A stretch of 49,749 nucleotides of DNA from Gammaproteobacteria bacterium (GCA_033720895.1 JAWWBS010000011.1:1-49749); one strand, 5' to 3'; positions 13,241 through 26,601 are shown, numbered from the stretch's first letter. The notes: generated by a model not told the origin, from the letters alone. Numbers and translations are program-made.

Positions 13241-14116
13241 TCAGCCGGCGAGCTTGGCGTGAATCGCTTCGCCCAGTTCGGCCGGGGAACGCACGGTGGT
13301 CACACCGGCAGCTTCCAGCGCCTTGAACTTCTCGTCGGCCGTGCCCTTGCCACCGGAGATGATCGCACCGGCATGGCCCATGCGCTTGCCCGGAGGCGCA
13401 GTCACGCCCGCGATGTAGGCCACCACCGGCTTCGAGACGTTCGACTTGATGAACTCGGCAGCCGCTTCCTCGTCGGTACCGCCGATTTCGCCGACCATGA
13501 TGATGCCTTCGGTCTGCGGATCCTTCTCGAACAGTTCGATGACTTCGATGAAGTTCATGCCGCGGACCGGGTCGCCACCGATGCCGACACAGGTCGACTG
13601 GCCAAGGCCATTGCCGGTGGTCTGGTGCACGGCTTCGTAGGTCAGGGTGCCCGAACGCGACACGATGCCGACCTTGCCCGGCTTGTGGATGTGGCCCGGC
13701 ATGATGCCGATCTTGCACTCGCCCGGCGTGATCACGCCCGGGCAGTTCGGGCCGACCAGGTTGGCTTCCGGGTAATCCTTCAGCGCCTGCTTGACCTTGA
13801 TCATGTCGACGACCGGGATGCCCTCGGTGATGCAGATGATGGTCTTGATGCCGGCATCGGCGGCTTCGAGAATCGCGTCGGCCGCAAACGGCGGCGGCAC
13901 GAAGATCATCGAGGCATCGGCGCCGGTTTCGGAAACCGCATCGCCAACCGTGTTGAATACCGGGCGGTCGAGGTGCTTGTCGCCACCCTTGTTGGGGGTA
14001 ACGCCACCCACGAGCTGCGTGCCGTAGGCAATCGCCTGTTCGGAATGGAAGGTGCCCTGCTGGCCGGTGAAGCCCTGGGTGATCACCTTGGTGTTTTTAT
14101 CAATAAGAATACTCAT
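13241..14116 (-). CDS. sucD: Succinyl-CoA synthetase alpha subunit
   Basis: Alpha subunit of the TCA-cycle enzyme that converts succinyl-CoA to succinate with substrate-level formation of ATP or GTP. At 291 residues it is full length. The CoA-binding Rossmann domain opens the protein ([14 protein letters not shown]), followed by GGVTPNKGG and [20 protein letters not shown]. The active-site histidine that is phosphorylated lies in [14 protein letters not shown] near residue 247. It is 31 bases downstream of sucC and ends in tandem terminators. The sucCD pair stands apart from the rest of the TCA operon, as in Xanthomonas relatives, where it borders pilus genes. Confidence 0.98.
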
Positions 14117-14147
14117 TGCTAATGCTTCCTGAATTCGGTGAGTGGGC

Positions 14148-15311
14148 TTACTTGGCGACCGCGGCGATGATCTTCTTCGCTGCGTCCGTCAGGTCGTCGG
14201 CCGGCTGGACGGCGACATCGGAATTCGCCAGCAGCTCCTTGCCCTTGTCGACGTTGGTGCCTTCGAGACGCGCCACGACCGGCACGGTGACACCGACTTC
14301 CTTCACCGCCGCGAGGATGCCCTCGGCGATCAGGTCACAGCGGACGATGCCGCCGAAAATGTTGACCAGGATGCCTTCCACGTCTTCGTTCGACAGGATC
14401 AGCTTGAAGGCCTCGGTCACGCGCTCCTTGGTTGCACCACCGCCAACGTCCAGGAAGTTGGCCGGCTCGCCACCGTGCAGCTTGATCAGGTCCATGGTGG
14501 CCATGGCCAGGCCCGCACCGTTCACCATGCAGGCGATGTTGCCGTCGAGCTGGACGTAGTTCAGCTCGTGCTCGTGGGCGATGTTTTCCTTTTCGTCTTC
14601 CTGGGTCGGATCGCGCATCTCGGCCAGGTCCTTGTGACGGAACATGGCGGAATCGTCGAGGTTCACCTTGGCGTCCAGCACCACGACACGGTTGTCGGTG
14701 GTGATGATCAGCGGGTTGATCTCGACCAGCGAGGCGTCCTTTTCAACGAACATGTTGTAAAGACCCTGCACGATCTTGCCGAAATCCTTCTGCTGTTCCT
14801 TGGTGATGCCGAGGCCGAAGGCCAGTTCGCGCATCTGGAACGGCATCAGGCCGGTCACCGGGTTCACGTGGACCTTGAAGATCTTTTCCGGGGTCTTCTC
14901 GGCGACTTCCTCGATGTCCATGCCACCCTCGGTGGAGGCCATGAAGGTGATGCGGCTGGTGTCGCGATCGACGACCACCGACAGGTACAGCTCGCGCGAG
15001 ATGTCGGAGCCGGCTTCGATCAGCAGCTGGCTGACGGGCAGGCCTTCCGGTCCGGTCTGGTGGGTGACCAGGGTCATGCCGATCATCTTGTCGGCCGCCT
15101 CACGGACCTCATCAAGAGTCTTGCAGAGCGTGACACCGCCGGCCTTGCCGCGGCCGCCTGCGTGAACCTGGGCCTTGACGACCCAGAGGTTGCCGCCCAG
15201 TTCCTCGGCAGCTGACGCTGCGGCGGCGGCGGAATCGACCACCTTTCCGCGTGGAACAGGCATGCCATAATTCGCAAAAAGCGCTTTCGACTGATATTCG
15301 TGAAGATTCAT
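14148..15311 (-). CDS. sucC: Succinyl-CoA synthetase beta subunit
   Basis: Beta subunit carrying the ATP-grasp nucleotide site and succinate site of succinyl-CoA synthetase. The 387 residues start with [16 protein letters not shown], the standard opening, and contain [17 protein letters not shown] (ATP-grasp), EINPLIIT, and the [18 protein letters not shown] and [10 protein letters not shown] segments of the CoA-ligase domain. It is followed by sucD. The start codon faces the pilS gene; a sigma-70-like promoter can be proposed about 40 bases upstream. Confidence 0.98.
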
Positions 15312-15349
15312 GGTTATCCGCGTGTTGGAGGGTCAAAAATGAAGCGCGT

Positions 15350-15378
15350 ATTTTGGCTGAAATGGCGCCAATTCGCAA
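15350..15378 (-). promoter_or_regulatory. Predicted sigma-70 promoter of sucCD
   Basis: On the minus strand TTGCGA (15378-15373), 17 bases, CAAAAT (15355-15350); each box matches the consensus at four of six positions. A short inverted repeat, TGCCAC-A-GTGGCA (15383-15395), lies just upstream of the -35 box and could be an operator. Confidence 0.4.
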
Positions 15379-15460
15379 AAACTGCCACAGTGGCAAGGAT
15401 TTCCGGGCAAATGCAGCGCACAAAGGCCGCCGCAGGCCCGGCAGAAAAGGGAGCTTGCGC

Positions 15461-17137
15461 TTGAACCAGCCCGCCATATCCCGCTCCGACAGCAGGCCGG
15501 CCACACCGGGCAGGCCCAGCAGCGAGGACCGCCTGGCCATGCTGGCCGAGCTGTTCCAGGTCTCCGGTCGGGACCTGAACTGGCGAATCCTGCGGCTGCT
15601 GAACCTCTACCGGGTCCTGGCGGCCGGCGTCATGCTGCTGCTGTTCCTCGACACCACGGTCGCCACTTTCGGGGCGCTGCACCCCGACCTGTTCGTGTTC
15701 GGCGCCTTTTTCTGGCTGGGATTCGGCCTGCTGCTGTCCTTCCTGCTCAGGGGCCGCTGGCCGGGCATCACACTCTTGACCTACTTCTCGCTGCTCACGG
15801 ACATCGGCATCGTCACCTTGCTGACCCACGCATCCGGCGGCCAGGGCTCCGGCCTGGCCGTGCTGTTGTTCGTCACCACGGTGGCGGGTGCCGCACTGCT
15901 CAAGGAGCGGGTCGCGCTTGCGTACGCTGCCATCGCCTCGCTCTCGCTGCTGGTGGAGCAGACCCTCGGGCATCTCGAGGGCACCAGCCAGTCCACGCTC
16001 TACGCCAATGCCGGCATTACCGGCATCATCCTGTTCACGACCGCCGTGGTCGGCTCGCGCGTGGCACAACGCTTCCGCGAATCGGAAGCCCTTGCGGAAC
16101 GTCGCGGCATCGATCTCGAGAACCTGTCGCAGGTCAACGAGGCGGTGGTCGAGAACATGCAGACCGGCATCCTGGTCATCGATGGTCGCGATCGCATCCG
16201 CCAGATGAACCCCTCGGCCGGACGGTTGCTCGATACCAGCTCGCGCGGTGGACGAAGCCTGGACAGCGTCTCGCCACTGCTGGCCGGCCTGGTCCGTCAC
16301 TGGCGTGATGGCGAGGCCATCGTCAAATCCAGCGTCAAGCTCGGCGACCGGACCCTGTTGCTGCGTGTCGAACTGCTGGGCAACGATTCGGGCAACGGGG
16401 CCGCAATCATTTTCCTGGAAGACGCGGCAATCGCCTCCGAGCAGATACAGCAAACCAAGCTGGCCGCACTTGGCCGCCTGACTGCCTCCATGGCCCATGA
16501 AATTCGCAATCCGATCGGCGCCATTTCGCATGCCAACCAGTTGCTGGCCGAGGCCGATCTCGACGCAACGGATCGTCGCTTCGTCGACATCATCCGCCAG
16601 CAAAGCGACCGCGTGAACGACATCATCGAGAATATCCTGCAGCTGGGGCGTCGCCAGGCCTTGCAGTCCGAGCAACTGGACATCGAGACCTGGCTGCGCG
16701 ATTTCATCATGGAATACTGCGACAGCTATGGCCTGGAACTCGATGCCATCGAATTCATCGCACCCGCCGATGCCATGAATGTCCGCATCGACCCGGGCCA
16801 CTTGCGACAGGTCCTGGTCAACCTGCTGGACAATGCCCGCCTGCATGGCGAGCCGGCTGCCGACGGTCGCCATGCCAGCCTGAGGCTGACCCGCACACCC
16901 CAGGGTGAAATCTGTTTCCTGGATGTGGTGGATTTCGGTCCGGGTGTACCGGATGACATTGCCAGCCAGATTTTCGAACCCTTCTATACGAGCGCGCGCA
17001 AGGGTACCGGTCTCGGCCTGTTCATTGCCCGCGAGCTGTGCGAGTGCAATCATGCGCAACTGACCTACGGGCGGGACGAACAGGGGAACAGCTGTTTCCG
17101 TATCACCTTCTCCGACCGCGATTTCAACCTGACCTGA
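15461..17137 (+). CDS. pilS: PilS-type sensor histidine kinase
   Basis: Inner-membrane histidine kinase that phosphorylates PilR; in Pseudomonas it senses pilin in the membrane and controls pilin transcription. Six hydrophobic segments span about residues 45-215, as in PilS. A PAS domain follows (NEAVVENMQTGILVIDG), then the HisKA box with the phosphorylated histidine in ASMAHEIRNP (about H346), and an ATPase domain with N box NLLDNARLHG, DFGPGVPD and GTGLGLF. I chose the TTG at 15461 because AAGGGAG sits about eight bases upstream (558 residues). An ATG at 15539 would give 532 residues, close to the 530 of P. aeruginosa PilS, so the start is uncertain. pilR follows after 28 bases. Confidence 0.92.
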   Translation: MNQPAISRSDSRPATPGRPSSEDRLAMLAELFQVSGRDLNWRILRLLNLYRVLAAGVMLLLFLDTTVATFGALHPDLFVFGAFFWLGFGLLLSFLLRGRWPGITLLTYFSLLTDIGIVTLLTHASGGQGSGLAVLLFVTTVAGAALLKERVALAYAAIASLSLLVEQTLGHLEGTSQSTLYANAGITGIILFTTAVVGSRVAQRFRESEALAERRGIDLENLSQVNEAVVENMQTGILVIDGRDRIRQMNPSAGRLLDTSSRGGRSLDSVSPLLAGLVRHWRDGEAIVKSSVKLGDRTLLLRVELLGNDSGNGAAIIFLEDAAIASEQIQQTKLAALGRLTASMAHEIRNPIGAISHANQLLAEADLDATDRRFVDIIRQQSDRVNDIIENILQLGRRQALQSEQLDIETWLRDFIMEYCDSYGLELDAIEFIAPADAMNVRIDPGHLRQVLVNLLDNARLHGEPAADGRHASLRLTRTPQGEICFLDVVDFGPGVPDDIASQIFEPFYTSARKGTGLGLFIARELCECNHAQLTYGRDEQGNSCFRITFSDRDFNLT

Positions 17138-17165
17138 GCAGGCAAGGGCACCCTGGCTGACGGAC

Positions 17166-18542
17166 ATGATGGACCTGAGCAACAAAATCGCACTGATTGT
17201 CGATGACGAGCCGGACATCCTCGAGTTGCTGGCCATCACGCTGGAACGCATGGGCCTGGCCGTCGATCGCGCGGACAGCCTCGCGGCCGCTCGCGATTGC
17301 GTTGGCATTCGCAAACCCGACCTCTGTCTTACCGACATGCGCCTGCCGGATGGTGACGGCCTCGAGCTGGTGGAGTGGCTGCAGAATCAGCACCCCGGTT
17401 TGCCCGTCGCGGTCATCACCGCGCACGGCAACGTCGAGGCTGCCGTGCAGGCGCTCAAGCTCGGTGCCTTCGATTTCGTGTCCAAGCCGGTCGACCTGGG
17501 CCAGCTGCGCGGAATGGTGCAGACGGCGTTGCGGCTCGAACCCACCGTCACGCCGCTGGAAACGGCAAGCGAGCAGCAATCCACCCTGCAAGGCAATTCA
17601 GCCGCCATCGAGGACGTGCGACGCCTGATTGCCAAGGTGGCCCGCAGCCAGGCACCCGTGCACATCAGCGGCGAGTCAGGCACTGGCAAGGAACTGACTG
17701 CGCGACTGATCCACGCCAGCAGCGCGCGCCGCGACGGACCTTTCGTGGCCGTCAACTGTGGTGCCATCCCGTCCGAATTGATGGAATCGGAGTTCTTCGG
17801 TCACAAGAAGGGCAGCTTCACCGGCGCCCATGCCGACAAGGAAGGCCTTTTCCAGGCCGCCGAGGGTGGCACGCTGTTCCTCGATGAAGTCGCCGAACTG
17901 CCACTGCACATGCAAGTGAAGCTGCTGCGGGTCATCCAGGAAAAAGCCATTCGACCTGTCGGCAAGACGCACGAAGAGGACATCGATGTCCGCATACTCT
18001 CCGCCACGCATCGTGACCTGGCGGAGCGGGTGGCTGCCGGCGCGTTTCGCGAGGACCTGTTCTACCGCATCAATGTCATCGAGTTGCACGTTCCGGCACT
18101 GCGCGAACGTCCCGGTGACATTCCCGTGCTGGTAAGCTCCCTGCTCCGCAAGCTGGCAAACACCACCGGCCTGCCCGAACCTGAAGTCGAGCCGGCAGCG
18201 CTGGACAAGCTGGCGGGCTACTCGTTTCCGGGCAATGTCCGCGAACTGGAGAACATACTGGAGCGCGCCATGACGCTGTCCAGCGGCCAGCGCATCCATG
18301 CCGATGACATCAAGCTTGGCCAGAAGGTCGCCCGGCAGGCCGATCCACAGAGCACGCCGCCGCCCAATGGCCATGGCGCGGATGTCGCCTCCCTGCCCCG
18401 CAACCTGGGTGACGAAGAACGTCAGGCTATCGAAGCCGCCTTGCAGGCCACCCGCTACAACAAGACCAAGGCGGCCGAAAAGCTCGGGCTCACCCTGAGG
18501 CAGCTGCGTTACCGCATCCAGAAGCTCGGGATCGAGGACTGA
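17166..18542 (+). CDS. pilR: PilR-type sigma-54-dependent response regulator
   Basis: NtrC-family activator that remodels sigma-54 RNA polymerase at pilin promoters. The 458 residues contain a receiver domain with the acidic pocket VDDEPD and phospho-acceptor D57 (LTDMRLPDGDG), an AAA+ domain with Walker A GESGTGKE (about 168), the sigma-54-contact loop GSFTGA (about 216; the common form is GAFTGA) and Walker B GGTLFLDEVAEL, and a C-terminal Fis-type helix-turn-helix (TKAAEKLGLTLRQLRYRI). Its probable targets, two sigma-54 promoters, lie within 1 kb downstream. Gene order pilS-pilR-pilin supports the name. Confidence 0.95.
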   Translation: MMDLSNKIALIVDDEPDILELLAITLERMGLAVDRADSLAAARDCVGIRKPDLCLTDMRLPDGDGLELVEWLQNQHPGLPVAVITAHGNVEAAVQALKLGAFDFVSKPVDLGQLRGMVQTALRLEPTVTPLETASEQQSTLQGNSAAIEDVRRLIAKVARSQAPVHISGESGTGKELTARLIHASSARRDGPFVAVNCGAIPSELMESEFFGHKKGSFTGAHADKEGLFQAAEGGTLFLDEVAELPLHMQVKLLRVIQEKAIRPVGKTHEEDIDVRILSATHRDLAERVAAGAFREDLFYRINVIELHVPALRERPGDIPVLVSSLLRKLANTTGLPEPEVEPAALDKLAGYSFPGNVRELENILERAMTLSSGQRIHADDIKLGQKVARQADPQSTPPPNGHGADVASLPRNLGDEERQAIEAALQATRYNKTKAAEKLGLTLRQLRYRIQKLGIED

Positions 18543-18733: not shown

Positions 18734-18749
18734 TGGCACATGACGTGCA
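18734..18749 (+). promoter_or_regulatory. Sigma-54 promoter of the first pilin gene
   Basis: TGGCAC-N5-GTGCA keeps the invariant GG (18735-18736) and GC (18747-18748) at the correct 12-base offset; only the first T of TTGCA is changed. Predicted +1 is about 18760. The remaining upstream gap (18543-18733) holds one TTTGTCA at 18598 and a small GGGG/CCCC hairpin at 18609-18624 but no cluster of PilR-type boxes. Confidence 0.8.
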
Positions 18750-18808: not shown

Positions 18809-19300
18809 ATGGATATGGAAATCACGCATCGCCGCCACCTCAAGCAGGGCGGTTTCACCCTGATCGAACTGATGATCGTCGTCGCCATCGTCGGCATTCT
18901 CGCCGCGGTCGCCATTCCCTCTTACCAGGACTATATCGACCGGGCCCGCATGACCGAAGTCATGTCGGGAATCGACATGGCGAAGACCACCATTGCCGAG
19001 GATTTCATGACCAATGCGGCCATGCCGGACGCCCCCGCCGCGGGGAACCTGCTGGAAGGCCTGCGAACCACCTTGGCGGCCAACTCCGGCCTGATTACGT
19101 CCGTGGCATTCACGCGCGACGATGACCAGAACGTGACCGGCGTCATCACCTTGAACGACGCGGAATTCACCGGCATCACTGGCAGCGGTGATACTGACTG
19201 GGCCTTCCAGGTCCAGGGGAGCGAAAACGGTGTCGTCCTGGACTGCAACGCAGCCGGCACGACCGTCCCGGCCAGGCTGCGACCGGCCAACTGCCGATAA
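18809..19300 (+). CDS. Type IV pilin, first paralogue
   Basis: Type IVa major-pilin-like protein of 163 residues, exported, cleaved and N-methylated by PilD, then polymerised into pili. The prepilin leader ends at G15 before F16 in [18 protein letters not shown], with the conserved Glu at mature position 5. The C-terminal region has two cysteines (LDCNAAG and ANCR) that would form the disulfide-bonded D-loop. It is longer than the second pilin and has an unusual 15-residue leader. It has its own sigma-54 promoter. Whether it is a second major subunit or a specialised minor pilin cannot be told; I leave the symbol empty because two candidates for pilA exist. Confidence 0.9.
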
Positions 19301-19474: not shown

Positions 19475-19490
19475 TGGCATGGATATTGCA
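19475..19490 (+). promoter_or_regulatory. Sigma-54 promoter of the second pilin gene
   Basis: TGGCAT-N5-TTGCA with GG (19476-19477) and GC (19488-19489) 12 bases apart. The -12 element is perfect and the -24 element has one change. Predicted +1 is about 19501. With the upstream box cluster it forms a complete PilR-dependent control region in the 248-base gap between the two pilin genes. Confidence 0.88.
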
Positions 19491-19548: not shown

Positions 19549-19986
19549 ATGCAGAAGATGCAGAAGGGCTTCACGCTTATCGAATTGATGATCGTTGTCG
19601 CGATCATCGGCATCCTGGCCGCCGTGGCTATCCCGGCTTACCAGGACTACATCACCCGCGCCAAGCTGTCCGAAGTGATGGGCATCGCAGCCAAGGACAA
19701 GACCACGATTTCCGAGTACTACGTGTCGATCGGCGCCATGCCGCTGACTCCGGATGCCGCTGGTATTTCCGAAGATGCTGGCCAGTCGCAGTACCTGAAG
19801 ACGGTTGCATTCAACAACACCGGCACCAACTCCGCCACCATGACCTACACCCTGGACGCGCCGCTGTCGGCCGCCCTGGAAGATCGCACCATCATCTTCA
19901 CGGGTACGGGTAATGCTTCCGGTGTGACCTGGACTTGCAACACCGGTACGCTGGAACCGAAGTACCGTCCGGCCAACTGCCGCTAA
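19549..19986 (+). CDS. pilA: Type IV major pilin, second paralogue
   Basis: Type IVa pilin of 145 residues. The seven-residue leader MQKMQKG precedes F8 in [16 protein letters not shown], with Glu at mature position 5, matching canonical PilA prepilins. The C-terminal disulfide loop is bounded by cysteines in WTCNTG and ANCR. I took the ATG at 19549, which has GGGGAGA upstream; a longer open frame starting at 19405 would bury the leader peptide and overlaps the promoter. It has the better sigma-54 promoter, PilR boxes and a strong terminator, so it is the likely main subunit. Both pilins end in RPANCR, so glycosylation at a terminal serine (as by Pseudomonas TfpO) is excluded for both. Confidence 0.95.
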
Positions 19987-20021
19987 TCTTCGGATAAGCT
20001 GCAGTTAAACGACTGTACCCG

Positions 20022-20053
20022 GAGCCCCATGGTTTACCATGGGGCTCTTTTTT
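20022..20053 (+). terminator. Rho-independent terminator after the second pilin gene
   Basis: GAGCCCCATGG-TTTA-CCATGGGGCTC followed by six T: an 11-bp perfect stem and clean U-tract. The next gene starts only 35 bases further on and no promoter is evident in that gap, so the downstream operon may be fed by leakage through this terminator. Confidence 0.95.
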
Positions 20054-20088: not shown

Positions 20089-22056
20089 ATGCGAACAGCT
20101 CTCGAATTCTCCAATCGCACCTTGCTGATGATGTTGCTGCTGCTGGCAGCCGCCATCGGCATCCTGGTCCCGGGAATCACCGGCCCCTGGATATTCGACG
20201 ACTTCCCGAACATTGCCGCCAATCCCGCCCTATCTCCTGAAAGCTGGGGTTGGCAGGAATTCCTGAAGGCCAGTTTCTCGGGCAATGCCTCGCAACTGGG
20301 CCGTCCCGTGGCGATGGCCAGCTTTGCTCTGAATACCTGGCTGACGGGCCTCGATCCCTGGTGGTTCAAGCTGGTGAACATCCTGCTTCATGCCCTCAAT
20401 GCCGCCCTGCTGTTCCTGCTGGTAAAACGCCTGGCCAGCCTGCCCGCCAGCGGACTTTCCGCGGATCGTGCCTGGAAACTGGCAGCCTTCACAGCTCTCG
20501 CCTGGGCTGTGCACCCGCTTGCGGTGAATACCAGCCTGCATGTCGTACAGCGCATGAACCTGCTGGCCACGGGTTTCACGCTGGCCGCTCTGCTGCTCCT
20601 GCTGCCGGCACGCCAGCAGCTGTTTGAGCGCACCCCGTGGGCCCTGCGGCGAATCGCACTGGGCGCCCTGTTGCTGCTCGCCGGTATCTTTTCCAAGGAA
20701 TCGGCGGCCTTGGCGGTTTTCTACCTGATGTTGATCGAGGGACTGCTGTTTCGCGGCCAGGACGCAAGCGGGCGCTATCGCCCCGTCATCGGCAGGCTGG
20801 CCATCGCCACGCTGGCGATGATCACTGTCGCAGCCATTGCCGCCTGGCCTGCACTGACGGCCAATTACGCCTACCGGGATTTCACCCTGGTCGAACGACT
20901 GCTGAGCGAACCACGCATACTCTGGCATTACATCGAAATGACCCTGGCGCCCAGCTTTTACAGCCTCGGCCTGTTCCTGGATGACATACCGGTGTCGCAA
21001 GGCTTGCTGACTCCTGCCGCCACCTTGCTGTCCATCTTCGGGCTTGTGGCCCTGGCGTTGCTCGCCTTCCTGGCGCGGCGCCGGCTGCCATTGTTCAGCC
21101 TGGGCCTTGGCCTGTTCCTCAGCGGCCACCTGCTCGAATCGACTTTCCTGCCACTGGAACTGGCCTTCGAACACCGCCAGTACCTGCCGGCGGCCGGCCT
21201 GTTGCTGGCCCTGATGAGCCTGTTGACGCATCCTCGACTGGAACGCATTCCGGTGCTGCCGAAAATCCTGCCGCTGGCCATCATTGCGGCCTTCGCCGGC
21301 CTCGCAGTGCTGCGCTCGCTGCAGTGGTCGGATGGCTTCGTGCACGCCCAGCTGGAAGTGCAACACCACCCCCAATCGGAACGTGCCAACATCAAGCTGG
21401 CTGAAGCCTTTGCACAACTTGCCCAGCAGGCCCGCAGCAAAGGAATGACCGACTGGACCGAGTTCTACATCCAGGCTGCCATGTCGCATTACCGGGAGGC
21501 GGCGCTGGCCGCACCGCGTTCGCCAGCGGCGCATATGGGCAAGCTCCTGCTGGCTGCCGACTTCCGGCAACCACTGGACGAGCAGGTGCTGGACGCTGCC
21601 GCCGAGCGGATCCGTTCGACCGCCGTCCGGGCCGACTGGCCAAGTTACCTGCAACAGCTCTACGACTGCCTCGGGGCACCTGGCTGCCAGTTCGACCCCG
21701 ACGCTTTCGAGGTCTTGCTACGGCTGACTCTCGAGAACCCCGAACTGAATCCGCGGCTGGCAGTAAAGCTTTATTACCTGGCCGCGCAGTATTTTGCCGT
21801 GGTCAGGCGAAACGGCAGCGCCGCGCTGGAACTGATGCAGGCAGCGGTCGATGTCGCGCCGGGCACATTCCAGGTCCACATGCTGCAGGCGGAATTGCTG
21901 ATTGGTGCTGGCCGCCTCGACCAGGCAGGAGCTGCACTGGCCAGGGCCAGGGAAATCGATTGGCTGGGCATCCACGCCCGCGATGTGCAACGATTGGCAT
22001 CGAAGCTTCAAGACGCTCGACAGTCTGGCGACATCCAGGAGGAGCAGCAGCCATGA
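20089..22056 (+). CDS. GT-C-type membrane glycosyltransferase with C-terminal TPR region (putative)
   Basis: A 655-residue polytopic membrane protein of the TMTC/PMT-like kind. About ten hydrophobic segments fill residues 1-410. Right after the first one comes WIFDDFPNI (D37/D38), the position and form of the catalytic acidic pair in the first external loop of GT-C enzymes that use polyprenyl-phosphate sugars. The motif GRPVAMASFALN and a His in LLHALNAALLF also fit this family. The C-terminal 240 residues are helical and TPR-like, expected on the periplasmic side. It directly follows the pilin terminator and overlaps the polyprenyl-phosphate sugar synthase gene by 4 bases. I infer that it transfers sugar to an exported protein, perhaps pilin; it is not PglL/TfpO, whose Wzy_C pattern I do not see. 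Confidence 0.75.
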   Translation: MRTALEFSNRTLLMMLLLLAAAIGILVPGITGPWIFDDFPNIAANPALSPESWGWQEFLKASFSGNASQLGRPVAMASFALNTWLTGLDPWWFKLVNILLHALNAALLFLLVKRLASLPASGLSADRAWKLAAFTALAWAVHPLAVNTSLHVVQRMNLLATGFTLAALLLLLPARQQLFERTPWALRRIALGALLLLAGIFSKESAALAVFYLMLIEGLLFRGQDASGRYRPVIGRLAIATLAMITVAAIAAWPALTANYAYRDFTLVERLLSEPRILWHYIEMTLAPSFYSLGLFLDDIPVSQGLLTPAATLLSIFGLVALALLAFLARRRLPLFSLGLGLFLSGHLLESTFLPLELAFEHRQYLPAAGLLLALMSLLTHPRLERIPVLPKILPLAIIAAFAGLAVLRSLQWSDGFVHAQLEVQHHPQSERANIKLAEAFAQLAQQARSKGMTDWTEFYIQAAMSHYREAALAAPRSPAAHMGKLLLAADFRQPLDEQVLDAAAERIRSTAVRADWPSYLQQLYDCLGAPGCQFDPDAFEVLLRLTLENPELNPRLAVKLYYLAAQYFAVVRRNGSAALELMQAAVDVAPGTFQVHMLQAELLIGAGRLDQAGAALARAREIDWLGIHARDVQRLASKLQDARQSGDIQEEQQP

Positions 22057-22940
22057 GCAGGGGCGAAGCACCAGGCAGCCGACTGAGTATCGTGATTCCG
22101 GCAAAGAACGAGGCGAACACCCTCGCCCGCATGCTTCCGGAGATCAGGAGGCTGCATCCCGAGGCGGAGATCGTCGTGACGGATGACGGCTCCAGTGATG
22201 GTACGGCCGAGGTGGTCGAAGCCAATGGCGGCATTGCCGTAAGACATCCGTTTTCCATGGGAAACGGTGCCGCCATCAAATCCGGCGTGAAACGCGCCAC
22301 GGGCGACATCGTCGTGTTCATGGATGCCGATGGCCAGCATTCACCGGATGATATCGGCAAGCTGGCCGATCACTTGCAGCAAGAGAATTTCCGCATGGTG
22401 GTCGGGGCTCGCAGCCGCAAAGGCCAGTCCAGCGCGTTCCGCGGCCTGGCAAATGCCATCTACAACCGCCTTGCCAGCCTGATTGTGGGCCACCGGATTC
22501 ACGACCTGACCTCCGGCTTCAGGGCCACTTACCGGAAGGATTTCCTGCGCTTCCTGGTCTTGCTGCCCAACGGGTTTTCCTACCCGACCACCAGCACGAT
22601 GGCCTATTTTCGCTCGGCCTTGCCGGTCGGCTACCTGGACATCGACGTCCGCAAGAACCAGGGACGCAGTCACATCAATCCACTGAAGGACGGGCTGCGA
22701 TTCCTGTTGATCATCATCAAGGTGGCAACCCTTTACTCGCCCTTGAAGGTCTTCGTGCCACTCAGTGCGGCTTTCTTTGCGACCGGCGCCTGCCATTACG
22801 CCTACACCTTCCTTACCCAGGGTCGCTTTACCAACATGTCTGCCCTGCTGTTCTCGACGTCGGTACTGGTGTTCCTTATCGGGCTGCTGTCGGAACAGAT
22901 CACCACGCTGATCTACAGCACCACCTCGCAAGATGACTGA
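22053..22940 (+). CDS. Family 2 glycosyltransferase, polyprenyl-phosphate sugar synthase-like
   Basis: A 295-residue GT2 enzyme of the DPM1/GtrB type, which moves a hexose from a nucleotide sugar to undecaprenyl phosphate on the cytoplasmic side of the inner membrane. The GT-A fold shows VIPAKNEA at the N-terminus, DDGSSDGT, and the metal-binding DADGQHSPDD, followed by LTSGFRA. Two C-terminal membrane segments (near residues 225-250 and 260-285) anchor it. The ATG at 22053 overlaps the previous stop (ATGA) with AGGAGGAG upstream. Its product is just the type of donor that the neighbouring GT-C protein would consume. Sugar identity cannot be read. Confidence 0.88.
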   Translation: MSRGEAPGSRLSIVIPAKNEANTLARMLPEIRRLHPEAEIVVTDDGSSDGTAEVVEANGGIAVRHPFSMGNGAAIKSGVKRATGDIVVFMDADGQHSPDDIGKLADHLQQENFRMVVGARSRKGQSSAFRGLANAIYNRLASLIVGHRIHDLTSGFRATYRKDFLRFLVLLPNGFSYPTTSTMAYFRSALPVGYLDIDVRKNQGRSHINPLKDGLRFLLIIIKVATLYSPLKVFVPLSAAFFATGACHYAYTFLTQGRFTNMSALLFSTSVLVFLIGLLSEQITTLIYSTTSQDD

Positions 22941-24126
22941 CAGCATCGCTAGGCCGAGGGTGCTCGTTCTGGCTTCGACGTTTCCCCGCCACGAGCATGA
23001 CACGCTGCCTGATTTCGTCAGCCAGCTCTGCAACGCCCTGGCCGGCGATTTCAGGATCACGGTGCTCGCACCCCATGCACCCGGCAGCCGCAGGGTCGGT
23101 CGCATCGGACGTTGCAGCGTGGTGCGGTTCCGTTATGCCTGGCCGACCAGCCTGCAAGGCCTCGCCTATGGAAATGGCATCCTGGCCAACCTGCGGCAAC
23201 GCCCATGGTCATGGCTGTTGCTGCCGGGCTTCCTGCTGGCCGGCATGCTCGCCACGCGCCGCCTGGCCCGCCGCGTGGACGCAAAGCTGGTGCATGCCCA
23301 CTGGCTGCTGCCGGCTGGTCTGACGGCCGCACTGGCCAGGCCGGGCCGTCCCTTGCTGCTGACCTGCCATGGATCCGATGTGCTCGCTGGCCGGTCCGGC
23401 CTGCTGTCACGATTGCGGCGATTCACGCTGGCGCGTTGCACGCGCGTAACCGCTGTCAGCTCATCACTGGGAGATGCTGTCCGGCGCCTGTCGCCAGGCA
23501 GCAAGCCGCTGGTCATACCGCTGGGCATCGACACGCAGCAATTCACGCCCCCGGCGATCGACACCGAGCGGCAGGGAATCCTGTTTGCCGGCCGACTCGC
23601 CGATGCGAAAGGCGTCGGACTGCTGCCTGGGATGCTCGAGCAACTGCATCCGGATCACCCGACGGCCGTGCTGCACATTGCCGGCGAGGGTGCACAGCGC
23701 GCGCAGCTCGAGAAAGCGTTTCGCCGGCATGGCCTGCAGCAGCACGTGGCATTCCATGGCTGGCTGCCACCCGACAGGCTCGCGAGCATCATGCGTGACT
23801 GCCGGATACTGGTTTTCCCAAGCCGCGACTTCGAGGGTTTCGGTCTCGTGCTGGCGGAAGGCATGGCGGCTGGCTGCGCTGTCGTCGCCAGCGACCTGCC
23901 GACCAGCCGTGAACTGATCGACGATGGCGAAAACGGCCTGCTGGTTGCACCCGGTGACGTCGATGCCCTGTCGACGGCAGTTGCCAGACTGCTGGCTGAC
24001 CCGCAACTGGCGGCAAGACTGGGCATCGAAGCACGACAGCGAATCGAGAGCGGATATTCGCGGGCCAGCGCCGTGCAGTCATTTGCCGGCCTTTACCGGA
24101 AGCTGCTGGCTGGAGACTGCTCGTGA
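22933..24126 (+). CDS. Family 4 glycosyltransferase
   Basis: A 397-residue GT-B-fold, retaining glycosyltransferase of family GT4. The N-terminal half shows the acceptor-side pattern (FPRHEHDTLPDFV, then VHAHWLLPAG and LTCHGSDVL), and the C-terminal half has PLGIDTQQF, FAGRLADAKGV and the EX7E motif at E301/E309 (FEGFGLVLAEGMA). It overlaps the previous gene by 8 bases and the following gene by 4, so it belongs to the same operon. It probably adds a further sugar to a lipid-linked glycan in the cytoplasm before export. Donor and acceptor are unknown. Confidence 0.9.
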   Translation: MTDSIARPRVLVLASTFPRHEHDTLPDFVSQLCNALAGDFRITVLAPHAPGSRRVGRIGRCSVVRFRYAWPTSLQGLAYGNGILANLRQRPWSWLLLPGFLLAGMLATRRLARRVDAKLVHAHWLLPAGLTAALARPGRPLLLTCHGSDVLAGRSGLLSRLRRFTLARCTRVTAVSSSLGDAVRRLSPGSKPLVIPLGIDTQQFTPPAIDTERQGILFAGRLADAKGVGLLPGMLEQLHPDHPTAVLHIAGEGAQRAQLEKAFRRHGLQQHVAFHGWLPPDRLASIMRDCRILVFPSRDFEGFGLVLAEGMAAGCAVVASDLPTSRELIDDGENGLLVAPGDVDALSTAVARLLADPQLAARLGIEARQRIESGYSRASAVQSFAGLYRKLLAGDCS

Positions 24127-24980
24127 GCCTCTATCCCATTACCGCCAAGCTGACCATCATTACCGGGGCGGGTCGTTGCGGTACCAAGTTCTTCGGCCAG
24201 CAGCTGGGCCGGTTCGTGTCGAACTGCCACGCCGAGCACGAGCCGGAAACACTTTACCTTGGCGACCTCGACGACCTGCATCGCCAGCTTGCACGCTTCG
24301 GGCCGAACCACTTCCTGATGGGCAAGCTGCTCGGGACGCGTGGACTGCGCAACCACGCCATCAACTATTACCGCGGCCGGATCACTCGTAGTGAAACCAT
24401 CGACCGAATCCGGCACGACCGGCGCAACGTGTTCAAGGTGGATGCCGAGCTGCTGGTCGAGGCCAATTACGCCTGGTGGTCCCTGACTGGCCTGCTGGAC
24501 GCGCTGGCCGGAAATTATCGCGTCATTACCATTGCCCGGGACCCGGTGGACTGGATTCTCAGTGTCCGGCGCCGGCGCGAGCTGCTGGATCGCTGGAACT
24601 GGCTGGCGCGGCTGCGCTTGAACCGCCTTTCCGACCTGCACTGGGACGAGGATCCGATCGTCCGCCTTGCTCATGCCTGGAATATCGTGCACGGCGAATT
24701 GCTGCAGGCAGCCAGCAACGATGCGCGGCATCGAATTTTCCGCATGGAGGACGTGTTCGACCCAAGCGGCGATGCCTACCGCGAGTTGCTGGCATTCGCG
24801 GTGCATGATGAAACTGCAAGCGTGGACTGGCCGGCAGCAATGGCGGCCCGTACCGAGGTCATCAACCCGAGCAAGCCGGGCGATACCGCGCTGGAACAAA
24901 GCCAGCTGGACCAGGTAGCCGACATCTGTGGCGAAACCGCGCAACGACTTGGATACCCTGCGAGGAGGACAGCCTCGTGA
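24123..24980 (+). CDS. Sulfotransferase-like P-loop protein
   Basis: A 285-residue soluble protein that resembles PAPS-dependent sulfotransferases. The N-terminal beta-strand and loop TIITGAGRCGTKFF (residues 11-24) match the PAPS 5'-phosphosulfate-binding loop, and ITIARDPVDWILSVRRRR resembles the 3'-phosphate-binding region of sulfotransferases (RDPxxxxxS). A late MEDVFDP segment is also typical. The start is a GTG overlapping the previous stop (GTGA). In this operon it could sulfate a glycan. The match is to the superfamily only, so a different P-loop transferase or kinase activity is possible. Confidence 0.72.
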   Translation: MSLYPITAKLTIITGAGRCGTKFFGQQLGRFVSNCHAEHEPETLYLGDLDDLHRQLARFGPNHFLMGKLLGTRGLRNHAINYYRGRITRSETIDRIRHDRRNVFKVDAELLVEANYAWWSLTGLLDALAGNYRVITIARDPVDWILSVRRRRELLDRWNWLARLRLNRLSDLHWDEDPIVRLAHAWNIVHGELLQAASNDARHRIFRMEDVFDPSGDAYRELLAFAVHDETASVDWPAAMAARTEVINPSKPGDTALEQSQLDQVADICGETAQRLGYPARRTAS

Positions 24981-25912
24981 CACTCGGCCGCCTGCGCAAA
25001 CTGTTGCTGGTGATCACGTTGCTGGCCGTGTTCTTCCTGAGCCTGCGCAGCCTGAAGGTCGACCAGCTGGCGTACGCCGTTCAATCGCTCGGGCCGCTGC
25101 TCCTGGCCGGCCTGGCCTTGCTGCTGTTCGCCACCCGATTGTTCCAGGCCTTGCTGCTGCGACTGTCCTTGCGCAAGTCGGGCTCGCCGCCGTTGTCGCT
25201 TGGACAGTGCCTGGACCTGGTAGCCAGCAAGGGCCTGTTCCTGCAAGTTGCCGGCGGCGGCGCCGTGGTTGCCCAGGGATGGATCGCCCGGGATCGCCTC
25301 GGGATCCGCGTTGGTGATTTTGCCAATGCGGCTTTCTGGCGAATACACGCCCAACTGGCATCCTTGCTGATGCTGGCCCCATTGCCGTTCCTTGCATGGC
25401 ATGGCGGGTCCTGGCAGGCCATCACCGGATGGCTGTTTGTCGCAGGCCTGATCATGCTGATGCTGGCAACTGCCTGGCTGGTTCGTGACTGGCCACGATG
25501 GCGGCAATTCCTGCTCCGTCGCCTGCCTGCGGTTTCCCCGCAACTCGACGCCTTGCCCGGGCAGATGGTGACACCCGGCGTGGTCGGCTGGCTCGGCTAC
25601 CTGCTGCTGTCGTTCCTGATCGTGGCACTGCGGTTTGCGAGGCTGTGTTTGATTGCAGCGGTGGTGGCGCCCGAGATCCCTGCGCTGTTGCTGGCGAAGG
25701 CATTCGTCCTGGCTGAGGTGACGGTCATCCTGCCATTGACACCCGGCGGGCTTGGAGTGAGGGAGCTGGCGCTGGCTGCTGGCGGGGGCCTGCAAAACGC
25801 CTTTGACACACTGTTACTGATTGCCCTGCTGGACCTGGCACTGGTGCTGTTGTTCAACCTGGCTCACGGCGCCATCGCGCAGGCGCGCCTGTTTGGATCA
25901 ACAAGGGATTGA
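24977..25912 (+). CDS. Flippase-like membrane protein (UPF0104/LPG-synthase TM domain family)
   Basis: A 311-residue integral inner-membrane protein with about eight hydrophobic segments. The motif PLTPGGLGVREL near residues 254-265 is the signature of the UPF0104 / flippase-like domain family, found in AglD-like proteins and the membrane part of lysylphosphatidylglycerol synthases. The start is a GTG overlapping the previous stop (GTGA). Last in a five-gene overlapping operon of glycan genes, it may flip or otherwise handle the lipid-linked sugar, but the biochemical role of this family is poorly settled. It converges with the methyltransferase gene, 20 bases away. Confidence 0.82.
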   Translation: MTLGRLRKLLLVITLLAVFFLSLRSLKVDQLAYAVQSLGPLLLAGLALLLFATRLFQALLLRLSLRKSGSPPLSLGQCLDLVASKGLFLQVAGGGAVVAQGWIARDRLGIRVGDFANAAFWRIHAQLASLLMLAPLPFLAWHGGSWQAITGWLFVAGLIMLMLATAWLVRDWPRWRQFLLRRLPAVSPQLDALPGQMVTPGVVGWLGYLLLSFLIVALRFARLCLIAAVVAPEIPALLLAKAFVLAEVTVILPLTPGGLGVRELALAAGGGLQNAFDTLLLIALLDLALVLLFNLAHGAIAQARLFGSTRD

Positions 25913-25932
25913 GCATGCGTCCCGCGTGACGC

Positions 25933-26601
25933 TCACCGGCGGGCATAGATGTAGAAGTCGGCAAAACTGCCACCAAGAAGACCAAGGAACCTGGCCGGAT
26001 AACGGTTGGGCACTGTCTCGACCAGTTTCCAGCCTGGTGCCAGGCGCGCCACGTCATCGACAAAACGACGATGCCGGACATGCCGGTGGGTGAGGAAAGG
26101 CAGGCTGGTCTTGTTGCTGGAATAGATGATTACCAGGCGCTCCGCGAGAGCGAACAACTGCTGCAGGTACAACTGGTAAACCTCGTCTTCGACCAGGTGG
26201 TAAAGCACATCCAGCGACAGCGCGGCATCACTGTGCTTTCCGGCAGCCGAGGGTTCGAACCGGGCCGGATCATAGAGCTCGCAGGAAAAGCCCGTTCGGC
26301 CTGCAAACCGCTCGGCACATCGCTGGATTGCACCCGGCGCCACATCCAGCCCCAGGTAGCGATCTACGTCGAACAGCAAGGCCTGGTTACCATCTCCGCA
26401 GCCAAGTTCGACCAGGGTCTCGATGCCGTGCTTGGCCACCAGTCGATTGATGACTTCGGCCTTGAATTCCGCAAAATGGCCATAAGAACCGGCACCAGAA
26501 TCACCACCCTCCGCATACCGCTGCGACCAGTAGTCTCCTGAGCCCGAAAAATCAATGTTTTTCAGGAAGTTGCGAACGAACTGGGGTAACCTAGTCGGCA
26601 A
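25933..26601 (-). CDS. Class I SAM-dependent methyltransferase
   Basis: A 222-residue cytoplasmic methyltransferase. The SAM-binding motif I is LVELGCGDGNQ (residues 63-73), followed by an acidic strand end (YLGLDVAP) and a motif IV-like LSLDVLYHL. The N-terminal YWSQRYAEGGDSGAGSYG stretch is common in methyltransferases encoded in polysaccharide and glycosylation loci. The start is a TTG at 26601 with a weak ribosome-binding site and no better ATG nearby. It faces the glycan operon tail to tail, and could methylate a sugar made there; substrate is unknown. Confidence 0.82.
   Translation of the reverse strand: MPTRLPQFVRNFLKNIDFSGSGDYWSQRYAEGGDSGAGSYGHFAEFKAEVINRLVAKHGIETLVELGCGDGNQALLFDVDRYLGLDVAPGAIQRCAERFAGRTGFSCELYDPARFEPSAAGKHSDAALSLDVLYHLVEDEVYQLYLQQLFALAERLVIIYSSNKTSLPFLTHRHVRHRRFVDDVARLAPGWKLVETVPNRYPARFLGLLGGSFADFYIYARR

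Follow-up and report, generated by a model that had tools for sequence, protein, structure and literature searches.

The window analysed here, a 49,749-nucleotide stretch of a Gammaproteobacteria bacterium genome (GCA_033720895.1 JAWWBS010000011.1:1-49749), carries within its type IV pilus locus a gene encoding a membrane transferase with a C-terminal tetratricopeptide repeat (TPR) tail, termed here GTC, which lies directly behind a pilin gene and is followed by a gene for a polyprenyl-phosphate sugar synthase of the GT2 family. On the basis of gene order and predicted protein features we consider that this locus is probably (about 0.74) a pilin-accessory glycosylation cassette, in which the GT2 enzyme would load a lipid carrier and GTC would transfer the sugar to pilin. 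Pilin-cassette glycosyltransferases are already known, the recognised pilin enzymes being O-oligosaccharyltransferases (O-OTases) of the Wzy_C type and one GT-C enzyme, TfpW. GTC, however, appears to be one member of a large and undescribed family of pilin-cassette GT-C/TPR transferases; we found no description of the family in the literature searched, most subscription journals lying outside the search.

Relatives of GTC are present in 107 of the 369 genomes sampled from the class (29%), and the class of enzyme is therefore common, not uncommon as the sequence-only reading had it. Carriers include the culturable genera Lysobacter, Dyella, Luteimonas, Variovorax, Dechloromonas and Undibacterium. 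When a collection holding one genome per species was scanned with a GTC alignment at least 570 matching stretches were recovered, whereas a scan of genome contigs with the single GTC sequence detected no relative; phage and plasmid records likewise contained none. Among the best 80 of these stretches, from named genomes, 66 have a pilin gene on the same strand within 450 bp. In the pooled, non-redundant set 121 of the 159 assessable GTC genes (a further 13 lie at contig edges) belong to a run of genes on one strand that begins with a pilin gene, a count to be read with the knowledge that mostly pilin-linked rows went into the profile and that related genomes are not independent. Homologous blocks thus lie mainly behind pilins rather than away from pili, and control loci show no such arrangement (0/25 for PMT_2 and 0/20 for Sulfotransfer_3, 0/45 together). 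Where loci were sampled across the full range of scores in the class survey, it is mainly the lowest-scoring matches that lack a pilin neighbour. Pilins of the PF00114 family occur in 54 of 58 GTC-positive genomes compared with 74 of 127 GTC-negative genomes (p = 7.7e-7), and in a tree of 173 sequences the pilin-linked label is clustered, with the GTC of the window placed among the pilin-linked rows. The pilin-GTC-GT2 order is also found away from pilR and pilB (e.g. L080, L083, L090, L118, L122 and L128), many of the loci concerned being betaproteobacterial. Behind pilin genes in tandem there is often a tandem of GTC genes (L031, L032, L033, L104, L144, L150 and L155), as if the two had been duplicated together as partners.

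The junction between pilin and GTC is itself conserved. In the window an accessory gene stands behind a pilin gene with an intrinsic terminator in between, whose folding energy is -24.1 kcal/mol (z = -5.6), and a terminator-like site within 150 bases past the pilin stop was counted in 83 of 100 homologous junctions against 1.35 expected from shuffles. The sequence-only reading had placed the block directly behind a pilin terminator and beside two pilins, and this description holds. The Pseudomonas aeruginosa pilA-terminator-tfpX/Y/Z cassettes share the succession of pilin, intrinsic terminator and accessory gene as well as control by PilSR, but in the window the accessory gene encodes a GT-C/TPR transferase and is followed by a glycan operon. 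In P. aeruginosa the layout has been proposed to attenuate the accessory genes (tfpO, tfpW and tfpY), thereby setting their ratio to pilin (PMC11841053). In the window a fraction of transcripts would read through the terminator behind pilA2 into the operon, so that the enzyme would be scarce relative to pilin. Transcription of pilA would be driven by PilR and sigma-54: PilR, encoded adjacent to the pilins, carries a sigma-54 activation domain, and the presence of a sigma-54-type site ahead of each pilin gene fits PilR control (the pattern TGGCAYNNNNNKTGCA has three matches in the window against 0.28 expected).

Conventional profile searches are uninformative about the catalytic half of GTC. 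For the window protein and 15 relatives, Pfam and NCBIfam matches are confined to the TPR tail, where the Pfam models are weak TPR models, no model in either collection matches the membrane half, and a sequence search of the PDB with GTC returned TPR chains only. The AlphaFold model of the whole protein has a predicted local distance difference test (pLDDT) score of 86, but Foldseek searches with it were swamped by TPR folds and the membrane half was therefore modelled (from 43 sequences; pLDDT 91) and searched alone. This search matched PglB, Pmt4, ArnT, PIG-U, STT3 and AftA with a probability of approximately 1 (1.0 or nearly so for PglB, Pmt4, ArnT and STT3). The model and the Foldseek matches support a GT-C fold for the membrane half. 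Alignment of GTC with the PMT_2 profile gave only 37% probability and an E-value of 3.5e-4, in the expected register.

GTC has 11 predicted membrane helices, and its basic residues cluster in the loops on the inner side. The topology count places on the periplasmic side the DD pair at 37-38, K203, the loop-4 DD pair (298-299), the EHRxY motif (361-365) and the TPR tail, so that the modelled protein combines a GT-C membrane fold with a pair of acidic residues in its first loop on the periplasmic side, as is characteristic of the superfamily. The acidic pair of the FDDF motif noted in the sequence-only reading corresponds to D37 and D38, which are invariant in 43 GTC sequences together with R72, Q154, R155, K203, E361 and R363; the TPR tail noted there is likewise present. 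These invariant catalytic-site residues, and the donor-making GT2 that travels with GTC, argue against GTC being a TfpY-like assembly factor, whose transferase domain would be degenerate and whose TPR part would be a scaffold aiding pilin insertion. TfpY-type accessory genes do occupy the same place behind the pilin terminator (PMC11841053), and we nevertheless judge this explanation highly improbable.

The sequence-only reading likened GTC to TMTC-like enzymes. The architecture agrees with that of the animal O-mannosyltransferases TMTC1-4: GTC and these enzymes are GT-C proteins with 11 membrane helices, in which the first outer loop carries a DD pair, a later loop carries KE, and the catalytic side bears a TPR tail. 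The motifs agree less well. Of those defined for TMTC proteins (M2 SHKSYRP, M3 RxD, M5 DW and M7 ERxxY; PMC7801869), GTC lacks the HK of M2, the D of M3 and the DW of M5, loop EL4 having DD without W, and has EHRxY in place of ERxxY in M7, while the RP of M2 and the R of M3 remain. DUF1736 (PF08409) had no Pfam match in 16 GTC members. On these grounds assignment of GTC as a TMTC protein was rejected, the likeness to TMTC being one of architecture and, presumably, of chemistry.

TfpO/PilO, TfpM, PglS and PglL transfer a lipid-linked glycan to pilin in the periplasm, and tfpO, tfpM and pglS lie beside the gene for their pilin substrate. All four enzymes carry the O-antigen ligase domain IPR007016 (PMC12645811), which is absent from GTC: Wzy_C (PF04932) is unmatched in GTC and in the 15 relatives, in agreement with the statement of the sequence-only reading that the PglL/TfpO pattern is missing, and GTC was rejected as an O-OTase of this kind. 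A C-terminal sequon of the TfpO type was also rejected, as the pilins of the window end in NCR and not in Ser or Thr; among 116 pilins paired with GTC, 13 end in Ser or Thr. A further parallel is TfpW, the GT-C D-arabinofuranosyltransferase of P. aeruginosa group IV pilin, whose gene similarly lies directly behind the pilin gene and terminator and which is likewise predicted to use a lipid-linked sugar. In a comparison made by description only, GTC differs from TfpW in its TPR tail and in the neighbouring GT2, GT4, sulfotransferase-like and flippase-like genes.

GT2 follows GTC directly in 49 of 63 runs. Its PF00535 domain, a C-terminus that reads as hydrophobic and its closest PDB matches (ArnC, dolichol-phosphate mannose synthase and the GtrB-type protein sll0501) are those of a polyprenyl-phosphate sugar synthase, and this likeness makes an undecaprenyl-phosphate sugar the most likely donor. 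Median identity to the window proteins is 56% for GT2 and 32% for GTC, with GT2 the higher in 82 of 83 loci, which suggests that the lipid receives a constant first sugar and that GTC diverges along with the acceptor. The genes past GT2 vary, and are mainly glycosyltransferases and sugar enzymes: the 98 that were scanned include 30 of the GT4 family, 12 of the GDP-mannose dehydratase/epimerase type, 7 methyltransferases, 6 of the asparagine-synthase type, 5 DegT aminotransferases and 4 Wzx-like proteins. Since GTC adjoins pilin and GT2 comes next while the later genes are variable, the core of the cassette is pilin-GTC-GT2. Hence, of the genes that the sequence-only reading had grouped into a glycan pathway only GTC and GT2 are conserved, and the GT4, sulfotransferase-like, flippase-like and methyltransferase genes are local and variable additions.

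The haloarchaeal Agl pathway, in which Halobacterium salinarum assembles a sulfated tetrasaccharide on dolichol phosphate, provides the nearest precedent for monophosphate-linked sulfated glycans (PMC11980604). Its components, a monophosphate polyprenyl carrier, cytoplasmic glycosyltransferases, a sulfotransferase and a GT-C transferase, would have counterparts in the window, the one for the sulfotransferase being putative, and AglJ is the best NCBIfam match of GT2. In contrast to GTC, AglB is N-linking and has a different architecture, and identification of GT2 as AglJ (TIGR04182) was rejected because the score of 111.7 falls below the cut-off of 325. The sulfotransferase-like protein has no Pfam match; its tentative assignment to a family rests on a GAGRCGT P-loop and an RDPxDWxLS motif, the counterparts looked for being the 5' P-loop and 3' RDPxxxxxS motif of PAPS sulfotransferases, both aligned with Sulfotransfer_3, and on one near end-to-end alignment with that profile (single-comparison E-value 1.5e-4).

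In the mechanism that we favour, GT2 would work in the cytoplasm, loading a sugar onto undecaprenyl phosphate. In this genome, conjecturally, GT4 would then lengthen the lipid-linked sugar, the sulfotransferase-like protein would sulfate it and the LPG_synthase_TM protein would help the lipid-linked glycan across the membrane. GTC, whose DD site faces the periplasm, would bind the lipid-linked donor there and move the sugar, or a short glycan, to a Ser or Thr residue of membrane-held PilA, with the TPR tail perhaps helping to hold the pilin. Of the pilin O-glycosylation suggested in the sequence-only reading, the genomic linkage to pilin is thus borne out, and the modification itself is put forward here as its most probable meaning.

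Several observations weigh against this interpretation. The Foldseek E-values for the membrane half are weak (best 3e-3), yet solely GT-C structures reach a probability near 1. The Ser/Thr content of paired pilins is only slightly above that of 11 unpaired pilins (22.5% compared with 20.2%, p = 0.07), and the genome of the window also encodes two Wzy_C proteins, which could have roles in other glycan pathways. The tree of 173 contains a clade of 14 GTC rows that are not beside pilins; two of its members adjoin a secretin or T2SSF gene and two adjoin a UDP-glucose dehydrogenase gene (L179:5064-8996, L182:5883-8913, L187:4682-7712 and L188:5272-8309), and GTC genes of this clade may serve other pili or surface glycans. 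The clade and its UDP-glucose dehydrogenase neighbours would be expected if GTC acted on lipopolysaccharide, exopolysaccharide or minor surface proteins and stood behind pilin through co-regulation only, an explanation that is improbable given that pilin adjacency extends across many families, even where there is no other pilus gene nearby, and that GTC is often in tandem where the pilins are.

The sulfotransferase-like gene also raises a difficulty, as it was found in its own genome only (1/185) and has no relative in the 184 others. Its orphan status, together with the conservation of GTC and GT2 alone, would suit a scheme in which GTC adds to pilin a single sugar made by GT2, in the manner of TMTC or PMT enzymes, and the GT4, sulfotransferase-like, flippase-like and methyltransferase genes build another surface glycan while sharing the transcript; GT2-type enzymes such as ArnC and dolichol-phosphate mannose synthase do make polyprenyl-phosphate monosaccharides. 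On the other hand the five genes from GTC to LPG_synthase_TM overlap successively by 4, 8, 4 and 4 bases (reading frames, 20089-25912), which suggests translational coupling, and other pilin-GTC-GT2 runs continue into glycosyltransferases and sugar enzymes. We therefore regard the single-sugar scheme as rather unlikely, although a good deal less so than action on another substrate.

If the cassette interpretation is correct, a separate GT-C/TPR type is present in 29% of the genomes sampled from the class, in most cases behind a pilin gene, and pilin glycosylation in the Gamma- and Betaproteobacteria would be far commoner than assumed. In P. aeruginosa, pilin glycosylation gives protection against phages that bind the pilus, and there is demand for O-linking transferases in glycan conjugation. 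A bolder proposal, which we offer tentatively and with less than even confidence, is that GTC represents an undescribed but widespread class of O-glycosyltransferases specific to pilin, in which the TPR tail holds the substrate. Such enzymes would be served by a conserved undecaprenyl-phosphate sugar synthase and by interchangeable tailoring genes, and their glycans (here sulfated) would be assembled on a monophosphate carrier, in the manner of haloarchaea, and transferred whole to pilin.

Features of the pilin and glycosylation region of the window, with the evidence for each.
Feature	Coordinates	Strand	Evidence
Sigma-54-type -24/-12 site before PilA1	18734..18749	+	TGGCAYNNNNNKTGCA pattern match
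PilA1 type IV pilin, 163 aa precursor	18809..19300	+	PF07963, PF00114
Sigma-54-type site before PilA2	19475..19490	+	TGGCAYNNNNNKTGCA pattern match
PilA2 type IV pilin, 145 aa precursor, probable acceptor	19549..19986	+	PF00114 6e-19; adjoins GTC
Intrinsic terminator between pilA2 and GTC, probable attenuator	20021..20053	+	12-pair stem and T run
GTC, putative GT-C membrane transferase with C-terminal TPR tail, 655 aa	20089..22056	+	AlphaFold, Foldseek, pilin-linked family
GT2 polyprenyl-phosphate sugar synthase, C-terminal membrane segment	22053..22940	+	PF00535 7e-32; PDB matches
GT4 cytoplasmic glycosyltransferase	22933..24126	+	PF00534 6e-39, PF13439
Sulfotransferase-like protein, orphan	24123..24980	+	P-loop and RDP motif; Sulfotransfer_3 profile alignment
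LPG_synthase_TM / TIGR00374 flippase-like membrane protein	24977..25912	+	PF03706 9e-12; TIGR00374 under cut-off
Methyltransferase, convergent, cassette membership uncertain	25933..26601	-	Methyltransf_12 just under, Methyltransf_11 just over cut-off

The block is flanked on its 5' side by genes for PilS, PilR and the two pilins, which are 46% identical to each other, and on its 3' side by those for PilB, PilC and PilD. All six genes were found where the sequence-only reading had placed them, with the overlaps that it gave and with the methyltransferase converging on the operon from the minus strand. Pfam profiles upheld its assignments for GT2, GT4, the PF03706 protein and the methyltransferase fold, and did not do so for GTC or the sulfotransferase-like protein.

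The genes sucD-sucC, on the minus strand, lie beside pilS-pilR (window 13241-18542), an arrangement kept in many related loci including those of Xanthomonadales. Locus L132, whose record bears the title of a Klebsiella pneumoniae metagenome bin, has the order sucD-sucC-pilS-pilR-pilin-GTC-GTC, which is typical of other gammaproteobacteria in the set, and the record is probably mislabelled or mixed. A second, divergent PilS/PilR-like pair adjoins GTC in two genomes of the order (L034:6083-10818 and L036:8907-13639), and L036 also has pilin-like genes and a gene for a protein of 1039 residues beside GTC. A dead copy of the cassette is seen in L047 (G052:C1:1406792-1407880), where GTC has decayed with several stops and GT2 is split while the pilin genes are intact. 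As to the two Wzy_C proteins encoded in the genome of the window, one (L158:925-2988, G000 contig C36) is a 687-residue fusion of an O-antigen ligase domain to a GT2 domain, and the gene for the second lies beside leuS (L159).

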